Source: an uncultured Mollicutes bacterium (GTDB lineage: Bacteria > Bacillota_I > Bacilli_A > RFN20 > CAG-826). From it: DNA of 64,000 nt. Under the pieces are notes generated by a model. It saw nothing but the letters and a program-made list of their open reading frames with translations. It did not search any database and was not told the DNA's origin. The stretch lies in contig CAMESG010000001.1 in the NCBI GenBank assembly GCA_945936135.1, positions 1-64,000 of the forward strand, given 5' to 3'. The position numbers and the translations under genes are program-made. Positions within the stretch are counted from its first letter, which is position 1. Every line of letters begins with the position of its first letter. Shown here piece by piece: positions 12,535-58,299 of the stretch.

Positions 12535-12549
12535 TTAGTAGTTTTTTAG
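12535..12549 (+). repeat. TTAGTAGTTTTTTAG element after lepA
   Basis: One copy of a dispersed AT-rich motif found after several stop codons in this window. It begins 9 bases beyond the lepA stop and abuts the -35 box of the next gene. Confidence 0.5.
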
Positions 12550-12577
12550 TTGCGAAAACACGCGAGTTTCCTATAAT
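12550..12577 (+). promoter_or_regulatory. Promoter of the Fic-like operon
   Basis: TTGCGA (12550-12555), a 16-base spacer and TATAAT (12572-12577). The start codon comes 17 bases after the -10 box, and no Shine-Dalgarno sequence is visible. Confidence 0.65.
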
Positions 12578-12593
12578 TACCTTAGATAAAACC

Positions 12594-14054
12594 ATGGCGG
12601 GAACGAATCAAAGCACGACACAATATTGCACCGATGTGCAGTATATGACGAAAAACGAGATGAGGCGTTTTCTCAAGACGAACCTCATCGATTTCCAATG
12701 GAACGAAACGCTTGGCTACCGCAAGAAGAACGCCGTCTTTTTGGATCTGCGCGATATCAATAACCGCCCGCTTAGCCTCACCAAGACCCAAGCGATCAAC
12801 GAAAAGGTTGAGCGTTGCTTCGATTTGATCAACGAGTTGCAGGAAAAGGTCGAGGAGATCTCGCAAGACAAAGACATCTATTCGACCGCGAAAAAGCAGA
12901 TCTATTCTTCCTTTTTGCGCAAGGCCTGCGCTTATGAAAACGTCGCGCTTTCGGAGTCTTATCTCACCGTGATGTTCACCGACGTCTATCAACGCTCCGA
13001 TCCCAAAGAACAGCCGATCAAAGGGTATTTGGATTTGCTTAACGAACTCGAAAGCAATCCCGGGAGCGCCTTGGACGAAGATTACCTCGCCCATTTGCTT
13101 GAAACCCTCGAAGGGACGGATGAATTGACCTCGTTCTACCGCGAAAGCGATCGGAAGAACCGCTATGCCGTCACGGCCTATGAAACGTATGATTGCTGCC
13201 CGGTCGCCTTGATTGAATCCAAGGTCTCTTCCTTGTTCGACAATGTGCGTTATGGGAAGCTCTTGAGCACCCCTTTGAAGGCCTTGCTCCTTGTTTATTA
13301 CATTGATTACCTAAAACCTTTTGACGCCCATAACGAGTTGATCGCAAGTTACTTAGGCAAAGCTTACTTAGCGCAAAACGGGATGGCCAAAGGCGCCTCC
13401 TTCCTTCCGTTTGAAGAATTGCTTACCCCAAACGATCGTTTGGCGGACGTCTGCAAGTCCGTCCAGCTTGATCATGACTTCACGTATTTCGTCTGCTACG
13501 CGGTCGAACGCTTGGCACCGATGCTCGAAAACGTGGCCCACGAGCTATCCTTGATCTATGCTCGTCACCTCCAGGAAGAGCAACATCGCCTCGGCGCAGC
13601 CGAAGCGCAAGCTGCCAAAAAAGAAGAACCGATCGAGGAAGTCTCGCCCGAAGACAAGCCTATCCCGGTTGAACCGATCGTTCCCAAGAAAGAAGTAAAG
13701 CCAAAAAAGGAATCCGACGTTCCTCTCGTCACCGAAGAAGAAATGCGAAACGTTTCTTCCGGTGTTGCGATCTTCACCCCTCGCCCCGCCTTAAGCGATA
13801 AAGAGGCGAAGGAAGTCGCCCGCTACATCCTCGAAACGCATCCGAACATCCGCAAAGCGCAGGCGAATTTCTACGCCACGCACTGCACGATCGGGCGTTA
13901 CTACACGATCCAGGATTACAAGAAAGCCACCCGCTGCGTCTACGAGACCGCCAGGACTTCGATGGACAACATGGCCAAGGAAGGCTTCTACAAGAAACTC
14001 CAATTCAAGAACAAATTCGTCTATTCCCCCATTAAGCAAGGAGAGAAACAATGA
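12594..14054 (+). CDS. Fic-like protein with a degenerate active site
   Basis: A 486-residue protein of unknown function. The helical core around residues 228-264 (KALLLVYYIDYLKPFDAHNE) lines up in pattern with the Fic motif region. The catalytic HPFxxGNGR reads KPFDAHNELI, so the His, the Gly-Asn-Gly and the Arg are all lost. A charged Pro/Glu/Lys linker (about 340-385) follows. The C-terminal 90 residues look like a winged helix, as found after Fic domains. No enzymatic AMP transfer is expected. It has its own promoter and overlaps the next gene by 4 bases. The Fic assignment is a fold-pattern judgement, not a database match. Confidence 0.55.
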   Translation: MAGTNQSTTQYCTDVQYMTKNEMRRFLKTNLIDFQWNETLGYRKKNAVFLDLRDINNRPLSLTKTQAINEKVERCFDLINELQEKVEEISQDKDIYSTAKKQIYSSFLRKACAYENVALSESYLTVMFTDVYQRSDPKEQPIKGYLDLLNELESNPGSALDEDYLAHLLETLEGTDELTSFYRESDRKNRYAVTAYETYDCCPVALIESKVSSLFDNVRYGKLLSTPLKALLLVYYIDYLKPFDAHNELIASYLGKAYLAQNGMAKGASFLPFEELLTPNDRLADVCKSVQLDHDFTYFVCYAVERLAPMLENVAHELSLIYARHLQEEQHRLGAAEAQAAKKEEPIEEVSPEDKPIPVEPIVPKKEVKPKKESDVPLVTEEEMRNVSSGVAIFTPRPALSDKEAKEVARYILETHPNIRKAQANFYATHCTIGRYYTIQDYKKATRCVYETARTSMDNMAKEGFYKKLQFKNKFVYSPIKQGEKQ

Positions 14055-14293
14055 ACCTCGTCACTCTAGCATCCGGTTTGCCGGGCTGGGCCTATCCCAT
14101 CATCATCTTCGGCGTCTTCGGCGTGATCGTCTTGATCGTCATGCTTTTGAAGAAGTACGTGAAGCCTTTTCAAAACCACGATAAGCCGAAAAGCGATAAG
14201 GAAGTCGCCGCGGAAGAGTTGGAACGTATCCTCCAACCCATCGAGGAAGATGAAGCCAAGAAGCAGATGAAGGACTTCGATCCGAAGAAATAA
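14051..14293 (+). CDS. Small single-span membrane protein
   Basis: An 80-residue protein with one membrane helix (about 13-33, PIIIFGVFGVIVLIVMLL), followed by a basic stretch and an acidic/basic cytoplasmic tail. Its ATG overlaps the stop of the Fic-like gene (ATGA) and a GGAG site lies just upstream, so the two are translationally coupled. hemW starts 3 bases after its stop. I do not recognise a family. The coupling suggests a membrane anchor or partner for the Fic-like protein. Confidence 0.7.
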   Translation: MNLVTLASGLPGWAYPIIIFGVFGVIVLIVMLLKKYVKPFQNHDKPKSDKEVAAEELERILQPIEEDEAKKQMKDFDPKK

Positions 14294-31454: not shown

Positions 31455-31484
31455 TTACTAGTAATTAATTAGTAGTTATATAAT
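31455..31484 (+). promoter_or_regulatory. dnaG promoter
   Basis: TTACTA (31455-31460) and TATAAT (31479-31484) with an 18-base spacer, about 27 bases before the dnaG start. The -10 box overlaps a copy of the TTAGTAGTT motif. Confidence 0.6.
31469..31483 (+). repeat. TTAGTAGTTATATAA element after glyS
   Basis: A copy of the dispersed motif, starting 20 bases after the glyS stop in the sense direction and overlapping the dnaG -10 box. Confidence 0.5.
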
Positions 31485-41322: not shown

Positions 41323-41741
41323 GCGCGGGGGTTTTCAAAGACAACAAATGGAAACTCAAGAGCAATGGACAGCATAGAAAATCAAAGTAAAGCATTTAGA
41401 AAAAGAAAAAGAGGCAACAGAGGAGAGAGTCTTAAATAATCTTCTTTTTTCATTCGTCAAGGGATGCTGTAGAAATCTAAATCGCAGGAAATGAAGACTC
41501 GTCCTAAGCACGACTCCTACGTTCATATGAGCGAAGAGTAGAAGGAGAAAGCCTTTGTTTTCAGTCATAGAAAACACGCGAAATTCGGAAGAGAAACTTA
41601 AAACTGAGAATTCTTAATTCAAAAATCAAAACTTACTTTTTAAAATTTAAAACATTCGATTACAAGGCACATTTAATAATAGTAAGTGCCTGAAATCAAA
41701 GGATAAACTTTTATATAAAAAACTACTAAAAAACTACAACA
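41323..41741. other. AT-rich gap between yneF and plsY
   Basis: Intergenic space between convergent genes. It is clearly AT-richer than its surroundings. A 73-codon minus frame (41577-41356) has no ribosome site and no recognisable sequence. Apart from the TAGTAGTTT element at its right end I see nothing functional. Confidence 0.5.
41716..41729 (-). repeat. TTAGTAGTTTTTTA element after plsY
   Basis: A copy of the dispersed motif on the minus strand, beginning 13 bases after the plsY stop in the sense direction. A second TAGTTTTTTAG lies between it and the stop. Confidence 0.5.
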
Positions 41742-47190: not shown

Positions 47191-47227
47191 GAAACATTCT
47201 ATTACTTCAATGCTTTTCTGTATCATA

Positions 47228-47240
47228 TAGTAGTATATTA
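47228..47240 (+). repeat. TAGTAGTATATTA element after parC
   Basis: A variant copy of the dispersed motif, 38 bases after the parC stop, in the sense direction. It is followed by further TAGTA/AGTAAG repeats. Confidence 0.4.
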
Positions 47241-47296
47241 GTACTTTAATAGTAAGTAAGATTCCGTTTTTTTTCGCGCCTGCGCCCTCTCTTGCG

Positions 47297-50843: not shown

Positions 50844-50860
50844 CCATTACATGAACTTCG

Positions 50861-50876
50861 CATAATGTCCATTATG
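50861..50876. promoter_or_regulatory. Orphan palindrome CATAATG-TC-CATTATG
   Basis: A perfect 7-bp inverted repeat around two bases. Its form recalls binding sites of Fur-family regulators, but no gene begins downstream on either strand, so a regulatory role is uncertain. Confidence 0.3.
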
Positions 50877-50989
50877 TTAACTATTTAATTTGAAAGTTAG
50901 ATATATCCTTATTATTTAGAATAAGAACCAATATTCCGACCGATTGTGCTTAGCTTTTACACCATTCTAAAACACTTTTCCACATATAC

Positions 50990-51002
50990 TAAATAACTAC
51001 TA
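50990..51002 (-). repeat. TAGTAGTTATTTA element
   Basis: A copy of the dispersed motif on the minus strand, beyond the terminator of the ABC permease gene. A shorter plus-strand copy (TTAGTAGTT) lies at 51075-51083. Confidence 0.4.
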
Positions 51003-51124
51003 CTGCCTTCAATTCTCTTCTTTCGATGCCTCCGACACTTTTATGTTAGATTGAGGGTAGTCTTACCTTCAAAATTAGTAGTTCCTCTACCCTTTCTTGA
51101 TTGGTCTTCGTATCTCTGCTTGAG

Positions 51125-54276: not shown

Positions 54277-55179
54277 CTAATCGCGGTTCGAGAATTTTGC
54301 ATAGGCTTTGAGGATCCTGCGTTCCGAAACGTGAGTGTAGATCTCCGTGGTCGATAGATGCGCATGTCCCAACATCTCTTGGACGGCTCTTAGCTTTGCG
54401 CCCCCTTCTAGGAGATGGGTTGCGAAACAGTGCCTTAAGGTATGGGGGCTAATTTCCTTATCGATGCCCGCTCTTGCGGCGTATTTCCTTACGCTTAGGA
54501 AGAAATATTGACGGGAGATCGGCCCTCCCCTTTGGTTTAAGAAGACATTCTGCGAACGGATGGTTCCTTTCGGGGTGTTCTTTAAAAAGACGGGACGAGC
54601 TTCATCGAGGTATTTCACGAGGTATTCGAGGGCGAATTCTCCGATGGGGACACTTCTTTGCTTGTTGCCCTTGCCACTTCGAACGATGATCCATTGGTTC
54701 TTCAGGCTGATATCGCGGACGCAAAGGGCGCATAACTCACTGACGCGCAGCCCTGTCGCATACATCGTTTCCAGCATCGCCTTGTCGCGGATTTCCGAAG
54801 GCGTCTTGCCTTCTGGAGCATCCAGCAAGGCTTCGACTTCTTCAAAACTCAAAACGACGGGCAGACGCTTTTCCAGGCGGATTTTCGGAGGATTCTTTAA
54901 TGAAAACGAAATGATCCCGTTCTTATATAGAAATCGGTAAAAAGAAACGAGACAAGAGGTTCTCCTCGCCAACGTCGCGGGGGAGCGGCCCTCTTCGCCA
55001 AGCTTGAAGGAAAAATCGTCGGGATCGAAAGGCGTCAAATCATCCGTCCTCTTCTTTTCGGGGAAAAGGCGAAGGAAAATCGTGAGATCCTCTTCATACG
55101 AAGACACGGTCGCTTGCGATAAGCCGCGCCCTGCGAGGAGGTATTCTTTAAACGCCGATATCGCTTCACCGATTTCCAT
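54277..55179 (-). CDS. xerD: Tyrosine recombinase XerD-like
   Basis: Site-specific recombinase for chromosome-dimer resolution at dif. 300 residues: the N-terminal SAM-like core-binding domain (1-95) and the catalytic domain. The catalytic residues are visible in order: Arg in ATGLRVSEL, Lys in SGKGNKQR, His and Arg in HTLRHCFATH, His in LGHAHLSTTE, and Tyr in IYTHV. No partner XerC is in view. It overlaps dinB by 14 bases and precedes deoB. Housekeeping Xer is more likely than a mobile integrase, given the operon. Confidence 0.9.
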   Translation of the reverse strand: MEIGEAISAFKEYLLAGRGLSQATVSSYEEDLTIFLRLFPEKKRTDDLTPFDPDDFSFKLGEEGRSPATLARRTSCLVSFYRFLYKNGIISFSLKNPPKIRLEKRLPVVLSFEEVEALLDAPEGKTPSEIRDKAMLETMYATGLRVSELCALCVRDISLKNQWIIVRSGKGNKQRSVPIGEFALEYLVKYLDEARPVFLKNTPKGTIRSQNVFLNQRGGPISRQYFFLSVRKYAARAGIDKEISPHTLRHCFATHLLEGGAKLRAVQEMLGHAHLSTTEIYTHVSERRILKAYAKFSNRD

Positions 55180-56411: not shown

Positions 56412-58283
56412 TTAGGACTTCGAGATAGCTAGATCAAGAATCGCTTTAGGTGTCAGTCCGTATTCTTTAAGGGTTTTCGCAGGTTTCAAAGCCTGAAGGA
56501 AGGCAACGGGCAACGCCTTCGCGGTGACCGACCCTCGATAACCCATCGACATCAAAGCCGCCATGAATTCTTCGGCAAAGCCACAGGAAGTTGAATACGA
56601 ATCATAAATAACGATGGATTCATAGGTTTTCGCGTATTCGACCAACGATTTAACGGTTGGGTGGAGAATCAACGGGCAAACGATGGAAACCTTTGCATCA
56701 AAGATGGATCGCAAAGCTTCAAGTTCTCTTGCTTTCGGGCCAACGGCAAGGACGAGAACCTTCTTGTTCTCTTCTTCGTGAAGAATGCGATAGGAAGAAA
56801 AGGTTAGGGAACGATCGAACTTTTCCGCTTTCAAAACCATCTCGCGAGGGATACGAATTCCAAAAATCCCGTGCTCCCCAAGGGAATATTCGTAAAGCAT
56901 CTTGGCTTCTTCCATATCCGAAGGCATCGAAAGCATGACGTTCGGAATGGATTTCAGAAATCCTTCGTCATAAATGCCTTGATGGGTCTCACCGTTAGCA
57001 CCCACGAGGCCGGACCTCTCGATCAATAAGGTCAGATTTGCGCCCATGCGTGCACAATCGTGTGAAATCTCGTCGTAAGCGCGCTGTAAAAAGGTGCTGT
57101 AAATATTGACGATAGGATGGAAACCGGAGATAGAAAGAGCACCTGAAAAAGTTAGAGCATGCTCTTCGGAAATTCCAAGATCAACACTACGATTCGGATA
57201 GGCGGCAAAGACATCTTCAAAATTGGCCCCTTTAAGCGTTGCCGCGGTGATAACAACAGCTTTTTCATTCTTTTCCATGACTTCTTTGGTCAATGAAGCG
57301 TAGAAATTCGACCAAGAAATAAAGCCGGGATGTATGTTTTTTGGCTTTGAACTTTCGATATCAAAGGGAGTAACGCCATGCCAGTAGCCGTCTTTATCCT
57401 TCTCCGCGGGGCCGTAGCCCTTGCCTTTTTGGGTTCGGACGTGCACAACGACGGGTTTATTCGTCTTTTTGGCTTTGATGAGGGCTTTTTCGATCTGTTT
57501 TTCGTTGTGTCCATCGACGAGTCCGATATAAACAAAGCCAAGGTTTTCGAAAATGTTGAAGGAAATAAGCTTCCTTTTCATCCAGTTTTTGAATTTCGTG
57601 AGCGTTTCGAGGATCTTTCTACGTATCTTTCCCTTGGAAAGGAACGCTCGGAAGCCCCTTTTTAGGCTTAAGTATCCATGCGCGGAAGAGATTTGTCTAA
57701 ACAATTGACCGATGCCGCCGACACTTTTTGTAATCGACATGTCGTTGTCGTTCAAAACGACGATCACCCGGTCTTTATGACCTCCTATGCTGTTCAAAGC
57801 TTCAAAAGAAAGCCCGTTAGCGATGGAAGCATCCCCGACAACAGCAATGATCTCGTAATCTCCGCCATTCATCGTTCGCGCGGCTCTAAAAGCATCCGCC
57901 GCAGAGAGAGCAGTAGAGGAATGGCCTGCATCATATGGATCGTATTCGGATTCTTTCCTAGATTGAAATCCGATGATACCGTTCTCTTTATTTAATAAGG
58001 AAAGATCGCGCCCGGTCAGCATTTTATGGGCATAAGATTGATGGCCGACGTCGAAAATAAGCTTATCTTTGGGGAAGTCAAAGACTCGATGCAAGGCCAC
58101 GGTCGTTTCAACGAGGCCGAGATTGCTAGACAGATGTCCGCCTTGATTCGAAGTAACTTCGAGAATCTTTTGCCTAAGCACGTCACACGCTTGTTCTATT
58201 TGATTAGAATTCAACGAAGAAAGGAAAACCTTATCATTTAGGCTTTCAATTGTAATTTCTTTGGTCAATTCTTTTCTTTTCAT
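56412..58283 (-). CDS. dxs: 1-deoxy-D-xylulose-5-phosphate synthase
   Basis: First step of the MEP isoprenoid pathway; thiamine-diphosphate dependent. Conserved parts: GGHLSSNLG, DVGHQSYAHKMLTGR, the TPP motif from VVGDASIANG to NDNDMSI, the catalytic Glu region SEEHALTFSGAL, and the DXS-type C-terminal domain. 623 residues. It follows xseB, as in Bacillus, but ispA is missing between them. The 31-base gap to xseB holds a TAGTAGTTT element next to the ATG. There is no ribosome site. Confidence 0.96.
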   Translation of the reverse strand: MKRKELTKEITIESLNDKVFLSSLNSNQIEQACDVLRQKILEVTSNQGGHLSSNLGLVETTVALHRVFDFPKDKLIFDVGHQSYAHKMLTGRDLSLLNKENGIIGFQSRKESEYDPYDAGHSSTALSAADAFRAARTMNGGDYEIIAVVGDASIANGLSFEALNSIGGHKDRVIVVLNDNDMSITKSVGGIGQLFRQISSAHGYLSLKRGFRAFLSKGKIRRKILETLTKFKNWMKRKLISFNIFENLGFVYIGLVDGHNEKQIEKALIKAKKTNKPVVVHVRTQKGKGYGPAEKDKDGYWHGVTPFDIESSKPKNIHPGFISWSNFYASLTKEVMEKNEKAVVITAATLKGANFEDVFAAYPNRSVDLGISEEHALTFSGALSISGFHPIVNIYSTFLQRAYDEISHDCARMGANLTLLIERSGLVGANGETHQGIYDEGFLKSIPNVMLSMPSDMEEAKMLYEYSLGEHGIFGIRIPREMVLKAEKFDRSLTFSSYRILHEEENKKVLVLAVGPKARELEALRSIFDAKVSIVCPLILHPTVKSLVEYAKTYESIVIYDSYSTSCGFAEEFMAALMSMGYRGSVTAKALPVAFLQALKPAKTLKEYGLTPKAILDLAISKS

Positions 58284-58285
58284 AC

Positions 58286-58299
58286 TATAAAACTACTAA
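58286..58299 (-). repeat. TTAGTAGTTTTATA element between xseB and dxs
   Basis: A copy of the dispersed motif, beginning 16 bases after the xseB stop in the sense direction and ending 3 bases before the dxs ATG. Confidence 0.5.

Follow-up and report, generated by a model that had tools for sequence, protein, structure and literature searches.

Genes between lepA and hemW

The 64-kb stretch of DNA analysed here (the window) contains, between two neighbours that we take to be lepA (upstream) and hemW (downstream), a pair of overlapping genes encoding a 486-aa protein with a degenerate Fic domain (the Fic-like protein) and an 80-aa protein with a single membrane helix. Both reading frames are as an earlier note on this DNA described them, and the ATGA at their junction is the overlap of the first stop with the second start. 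The features of this interval are as follows.

12535 to 12550, forward strand: promoter copy of the terminus repeat element, TTAGTAGTTTTTTAGT, at the Fic-like gene; conserved upstream in 70/80 loci
12550 to 12577, forward strand: likely promoter, TTGCGA (12550-12555), 16 bp and TATAAT (12572-12577), read from the sequence by its likeness to the promoter consensus
12594 to 14054, forward strand: gene for the Fic-fold pseudoenzyme, an ORF of 486 aa plus stop, assigned by family and fold comparison
12594 to 12791, forward strand: N-terminal ~66 residues, helix-helix-helix-strand-strand in the secondary structure of the model, winged-helix-like by topology only
12792 to 13622, forward strand: degenerate Fic core, residues 67-343, by VIA-align to 3eqx_B
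13314 to 13343, forward strand: KPFDAHNELI (residues 241-250) replacing HPFxxGNGR, by column counts in 73 homologues
13785 to 14051, forward strand: C-terminal winged helix, residues 398-486, with an invariant YETARTSM
14051 to 14293, forward strand: one-helix membrane protein of 80 aa (ORF)

Homologues of the Fic-like protein are present in 47/61 relative genomes. Matching of the pattern YETARTSM in genome contigs gave 210 places, 204 of them homologues, from which 80 loci were kept; the records are titled as uncultured Bacilli, Bacillales and Erysipelotrichaceae, with names of rumen and gut isolates common. An alignment of 73 sequences was made from the window protein and 72 of these loci, leaving aside eight that were near-duplicate or truncated. 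Gene order is stable, with lepA found in 74 of the 80 loci and hemW in all 80. The Fic-like gene is missing in three genomes (G008, G025 and G027), most likely through an assembly gap, because the lepA orthologue is missing there too, as judged against a 78 percent full-length match in G028. An artefact of the lepA-hemW interval was ruled out, since the gene and the state of its motif are both conserved. Searches of the 64-kb window for RNA genes returned none with either Rfam or ARAGORN.

A small one-helix membrane ORF lies no more than 22 bp from the Fic-like stop in 80/80 loci, with the ATGA overlap in 19 of them; BLAST with the 80-aa protein of the window recovers it in 58/80 loci, and 44/80 loci plus the window entered its alignment. 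A Pfam search with the protein gave scattered weak matches only, and the lysines that follow the helix, together with an acidic tail, suggest that the tail is cytoplasmic. The conserved pairing put forward in the earlier note thus stands by position, but it is not exclusive. In two order-level loci (L030 and L034) the Fic-like gene directly precedes hemW with no membrane ORF between, and in families that lack the Fic-like gene lepA and hemW flank a small membrane ORF (L185, L187, L189, L190, L191 and L192), whose kinship to the 80-aa protein was judged by eye. Because it is kept in such families, the membrane gene may predate the Fic-like gene. Each of the two genes therefore occurs alone, which counts against a tight partnership. 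The membrane ORF between lepA and hemW may have a role of its own.

A predicted inactive Fic fold with a winged-helix end

Used alone as a query, the window protein is nearly silent: against Pfam-A at E <= 10 it matches only BEN (the best, E 0.069) and Nuf2_DHR10-like, and sequence searches of NCBIfam and the PDB give no match. The fold emerges from structure prediction and from the family. The AlphaFold model of the 486-aa protein (pLDDT 90.2, pTM 0.85) has a Fic fold, its top Foldseek match is SoFic (E 1.3e-6), and VIA-align superposes it on SoFic 3eqx_B with Z 22.9 over 276 residues at 3.7 A (model residues 54-339). A profile of the 73 sequences finds Fic structures in the PDB (4rgl, E 1.8e-14; 8cil, E 2.4e-10), and against five canonical Fic proteins from related genomes hhalign reports a probability of 97.8 and E 8.7e-13. 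The Pfam Fic model matches 27/73 homologues at E <= 0.01, the window protein itself not being among them, and its curated cut-off is exceeded by several homologues (top score 32.4 bits). The Fic fold claimed in the earlier note is hence borne out, and the protein is almost certainly a Fic-fold pseudoenzyme. Two of the 73 homologues also weakly match the NCBIfam MG284/MPN403 family protein of mycoplasmas (best E 0.0049), a possible distant relative.

The catalytic motif is replaced throughout the family. Profile-profile alignment by hhalign sets KPFDAHN onto HPFxDGNGR, and the substitution that the earlier note had read at this place is confirmed at residues 241-250; its degeneracy extends to the relatives, where the canonical HPFx[D/E]GN[G/K]R occurs in 0/73 homologues. 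The column of the catalytic His holds K in 51 sequences, Q in 7, E in 6, R in 4, M in 2, and V, N and A in one each. Other motif columns are kept (Pro in 72, Phe in 73 and Asn in 56 of the 73), as are R183, D295, T297 and Y298 in 73/73 homologues and E274 in 90 percent or more. That an active Fic protein decayed recently was ruled out, because the canonical motif is absent from all 73 sequences; the predicted dead site of the family is old and conserved. Predicted active Fic proteins coexist with the Fic-like protein in its own genome, which has four Pfam Fic matches over the cut-off (G000:C3:89807, C3:828, C2:154740 and C6:19662), at least three with the canonical motif.

The core is followed by a winged-helix end, as the earlier note had proposed from the sequence, and models and structure neighbours agree. 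Modelled alone, the C-terminal region forms a winged helix (pLDDT 90.9). Among solved structures, its neighbours are winged helices that bind DNA, for example TrmBL2 (Z 9.3) and AspA, a centromere protein of plasmids (Foldseek E 0.011); the winged helices of the Fic proteins 8cil and SoFic are neighbours as well. This end is the most conserved part of the family. YETARTSM is invariant in the 73 sequences, a count biased by the use of the motif as search pattern, and it is also invariant in 29 sequences found without the pattern; 17 columns of the winged helix are invariant across 30 sequences (29 of the 80 loci and the window). The mean net charge over the 73 homologues is +6.1 for the winged helix and -12.1 for the Fic core.

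A repeat array at the replication terminus

Comparison of the DNA between lepA and the Fic-like start across loci revealed TTAGTAGTTTTTTAGT or close variants of it, matching at 13 or more of 16 positions upstream of the gene in 70/80 loci, against 5/1600 shuffled regions. In the window the element abuts the likely promoter TTGCGA-16-TATAAT. Its own genome (1.23 Mb) has seven matches with at most two mismatches, five of them inside the window, where 0.33 are expected, and the copy at the Fic-like gene is the most perfect both in the window and in the whole genome. The further features of the window that bear on the element are as follows.

31469 to 31484, forward strand: weaker terminus repeat (PWM 15.7 bits)
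41714 to 41740, reverse strand: tandem terminus repeat (element match, PWM)
47227 to 47253, forward strand: weak tandem terminus repeat (PWM 13.9 and 13.2 bits)
50855 to 50882, forward strand: dif-like site in a convergent gene gap (19/22 arm positions shared with B. subtilis dif)
50988 to 51003, reverse strand: terminus repeat next to dif, in inverted orientation to it (element match, PWM, dif-to-repeat comparison)
54277 to 55179, reverse strand: tyrosine recombinase of Xer type, 3.4 kb from dif (Pfam Phage_integrase, E 3.1e-51)
58284 to 58299, reverse strand: terminus repeat that ends where the ORF at 56412-58283 starts (element match, PWM)

The element belongs to a family of 11-bp direct repeats, TTAGTAnnnnn, whose members stand 11 or 22 bp from one another in the arrays of other genomes; two loci (L033 and L034) have three TTAGTA in a row at 11-bp steps. 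Terminus stretches from ten genomes (844 kb), picked around the Fic-like gene (in G101, G299 and G028 after site matches had been seen), contain 53 pairs of TTAGT at 11-bp spacing, versus 2 in 699 kb of control stretches, taken from eight of the ten genomes (not the window's genome or G299). At 22-bp spacing there are 25 pairs in terminus stretches versus 0 in controls; the other spacings from 6 to 30, which served as a second control, give 0-5 pairs in terminus stretches and 0-7 in control stretches. Most of the 53 pairs come from five genomes (G101, 19; G299, 10; G009, 7; G036, 7; G028, 5); the window, G286 and G057 have one exact pair each, and G166 has none.

Counted as 16-mers by group of genomes, matches number 102 versus 9 for the reversed control in 28 genomes of the window's genus that carry the Fic-like gene, and 8 versus 1 in the three genomes with the assembly gap at the locus. 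In 19 other genomes with the gene the counts are 36 versus 33, without aggregate enrichment, and 11 genomes of the order without the gene show no excess (6 versus 31). This co-occurrence of gene and array is weak evidence, with few independent events, because all the array genomes are related. In G040, which carries the Fic-like gene on another contig, two perfect copies of the element lie 132 bp apart (L239:1955 and 2087) upstream of an rpsL-like ORF.

The position of the array on the chromosome can be read from strand and skew. In G286 (one contig of 1,061,998 bases), GC skew and coding strand both change over at 205 kb, where dnaA lies, and at ~719 kb, with the Fic-like gene at 678 kb. G101 has dnaA at 713 kb, the switch of strand and GC skew at ~184 kb and the Fic-like gene at 219 kb, and 17 of 24 element matches fall between 142 and 220 kb. 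On each side of dif the array extends as far as 40 kb. Convergent gaps hold several of the repeats, and in all genomes read the dif gap is one of these. We are confident that the repeats are concentrated at the replication terminus.

The dif-like site of the window is well separated from the next-best match there (16/22 arm positions shared with B. subtilis dif). The first five genomes read each have such a site, with 17-20/22 arm positions, in a convergent gap at the strand switch, and a clade version of dif was found in 8/10 genomes, each time in a convergent gap. The distance from the Fic-like gene to dif is 35-44 kb in all eight, and in 8/8 an inverted repeat lies 105-125 bp 3' of dif, the first unit being at +105, +125, +105, +106, +107, +107, +117 and +117 bp. 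These dif-side repeats mostly continue with further units 11 bp on, and the DNA between dif and repeat has diverged. Single, non-tandem TTAGTA cores occur closer to dif in G286 (+24) and G101 (+47). Near the dif-side repeat, in the window (near 50960) and in the dif gaps of G101, G299 and G036, there is also TTTTCCACA or TTTCCACAT, sequences that to us resemble a DnaA box.

The partition protein family ParB_N was also surveyed: it matches weakly (42-65 bits) in 8/10 genomes with the Fic-like gene, being absent in G101 and G166, and strongly (113 and 119 bits) in G051 and G048, which lack the gene. Canonical ParB may have been lost where the array exists.

Candidate roles of the Fic-like protein

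The earlier note assigned the pair a regulatory or scaffolding role rather than AMP transfer. The scaffolding idea survives in kind, but it is too general, as the tie of the promoter element to the terminus repeats and dif points to the biology of the chromosome terminus. The location of the Fic-like gene among terminus-confined repeats, one of them in its own promoter, suggests that the protein was repurposed for the chromosome end. The Fic-like protein is the best candidate reader of the array because it has a conserved winged helix of DNA-binding type, its gene lies within the array and a site lies in its promoter, and the array is probably bound by it. The Fic domain would have lost catalysis and become a DNA-handling scaffold, and the loss of the active site fits such a shift from enzyme to scaffold. 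The C-terminal winged helix, perhaps aided by the winged-helix-like N-terminus, would bind the TTAGTAnnnnn repeats within ~45 kb of dif; because one repeat overlaps its own -35 region, the protein likely represses its own promoter. The 11-bp repeats would place the bound proteins in phase along the same side of the helix and gather the terminus, one repeat keeping a constant distance to dif. The membrane protein may take part by anchoring the complex at the membrane or the division site, and dif and the last-replicated DNA would thereby be placed for resolution and segregation.

The composite of these steps, namely a dead Fic protein that binds the array, represses itself and serves as organiser or tether of the terminus, perhaps by way of the membrane protein, is advanced tentatively. 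An organiser or tether function, taken as a separate claim, is slightly more doubtful. The most tentative form is that of a terminus organiser, in an order of uncultured Bacilli, that would bind helically phased repeats around dif and at a set distance from it, control itself through such a repeat, tie the terminus to the membrane with the co-expressed one-helix protein and be unrelated to MatP, RTP and Tus.

Among the alternatives, it is unlikely, although less so than for the others, that another protein reads the repeats and that the Fic-like protein scaffolds something else, its promoter site being incidental to the location of the gene. Only a single member of the array stands at the Fic-like gene, and the shorter relative in family f25 (below) shares the winged helix yet has no link to the terminus. 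Against this, the copy at the gene is the most perfect one and is conserved in 70/80 loci, and the element is not in excess in the genomes of the order that lack the gene.

Two further readings are improbable to a similar degree. In the first, the protein would be an Xer accessory factor, bound beside dif and setting the geometry of the Xer synapse, with the other repeats secondary, much as ArgR and PepA set synapse geometry at plasmid cer sites. Constant spacing between site and recombination core in 8/8 genomes, across diverged DNA, is what such a factor would show, and an Xer-type recombinase is encoded 3.4 kb from dif in the window. However, the 40-kb reach of the array to either side is too far for a local synapse, and chromosomal dif elsewhere works with FtsK and is not known to use an accessory sequence. 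In the second, the protein would be an ordinary transcription factor with operators in several nearby promoters, as the site in its own operon's promoter and the one where the ORF at 56412-58283 begins might indicate. Yet a promoter would not be expected in the convergent gaps that hold several of the sites, the dif gap among them in all genomes read, and the sites group by distance to dif rather than by pathway, with a fixed spacing to dif. When 20 other sites were annotated, gene ends and convergent gaps proved as frequent as promoters, and a regulon was rejected. Least probable is a fork trap like RTP/ter, in which the repeat-bound protein stops forks leaving the terminus: the winged helix, the terminus location, the site in the protein's own promoter and the same orientation relative to the fork at 23/34 places agree with it, but a trap needs polar sites, 11/34 places are opposite (p 0.058), and RTP (PF02334) has no match in ten genomes, the B. 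subtilis control being detected. An organiser or tether is preferred to the fork trap because polarity is not strict and arrays lie on both sides of dif.

The proposed terminus organiser shares parts with several known systems. The Fic AMP transferases SoFic (3eqx/3zcn), Coxiella Fic2 (8cil) and Dde_2494 (4rgl) have the Fic core in common with it, and in 8cil and SoFic a winged helix also follows the core; unlike them, the Fic-like family has no catalytic His or GNGR (0/73) and has a long charged linker, an extra N-terminal domain and terminus-linked sites. A FicTA toxin-antitoxin pair, in which an active toxin has its antitoxin beside it, is likewise a poor description, as the catalytic motif is absent and the neighbour is a membrane protein. 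BepC of Bartonella is a Fic-domain effector with a noncanonical Fic motif. It reportedly acts by bringing a partner, GEF-H1, to the plasma membrane (PMC7842960); unlike the protein proposed here, it is injected and acts in host cells, with no DNA-binding role. Plasmid centromere proteins (ParR/parC, TubR/tubC and AspA of pNOB8) bind helically phased direct repeats in arrays, and AspA is a fold neighbour of the winged helix of the Fic-like protein; here, in contrast, the site is a chromosomal terminus and no motor gene is seen beside the Fic-like gene.

To our knowledge, site-specific terminus systems (Tus, RTP and MatP) occur in few lineages and arose from unrelated proteins, RTP being a winged helix. 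The MatP/matS system of the E. coli Ter macrodomain resembles the present one in having an array of short sites confined to the terminus, with 23 matS within an 800-kb domain according to a passage of PMC3330122, and MatP also contacts membranes according to one of PMC6538776. It differs in its unrelated protein, in a 13-bp site rather than 11-bp direct repeats, and in that the array here spans ~80 kb and the membrane protein is separate. RTP/ter of B. subtilis and Tus/ter of E. coli likewise have terminus sites, one of them in the promoter of the protein's own gene, as here in 70/80 loci, and an excerpt of PMC10331603 describes both genes as autoregulated through that ter site. They differ in that there is no RTP homologue here and site polarity is not strict. 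The window protein matches neither the MatP model nor RTP (PF02334) in Pfam-A at E <= 10, and neither protein is among the best VIA-align matches of the full model or the winged helix, an observation that excludes nothing. With the defining motif absent and the RTP and MatP models unmatched, the family is filed under neither Fic AMP transferases, RTP nor MatP. In the open-licence literature searched, no description of a Fic-fold protein or of an 11-bp array at a chromosome terminus was recognised. If the proposal is true, it adds a further terminus system built on a dead Fic protein and linked to dif, a new variant of the terminus pair of site and reader, and shows a new way in which a toxin-type enzyme becomes a chromosome organiser, and it offers a testable entry into the end of replication in gut Bacilli without RTP. 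The dif-linked array is striking in itself and needs a reader even if the Fic-like protein is not the one.

The family f25, of the same class (L174, L175, L176, L177, L178, L180 and L181), has a shorter relative with the same winged helix, also between lepA and hemW, and in the 120-140 kb read no dif or strand switch lies near it. At most of the listed f25 loci the shorter relative is followed by an ORF of 214-270 aa, and a Spo0A C-terminal domain is present in both of the two that were searched (E 4e-18 and 1.5e-9). Upstream of the first gene, the f25 interval contains a TTTTGTCGAA-like sequence, which we take to be a 0A box.
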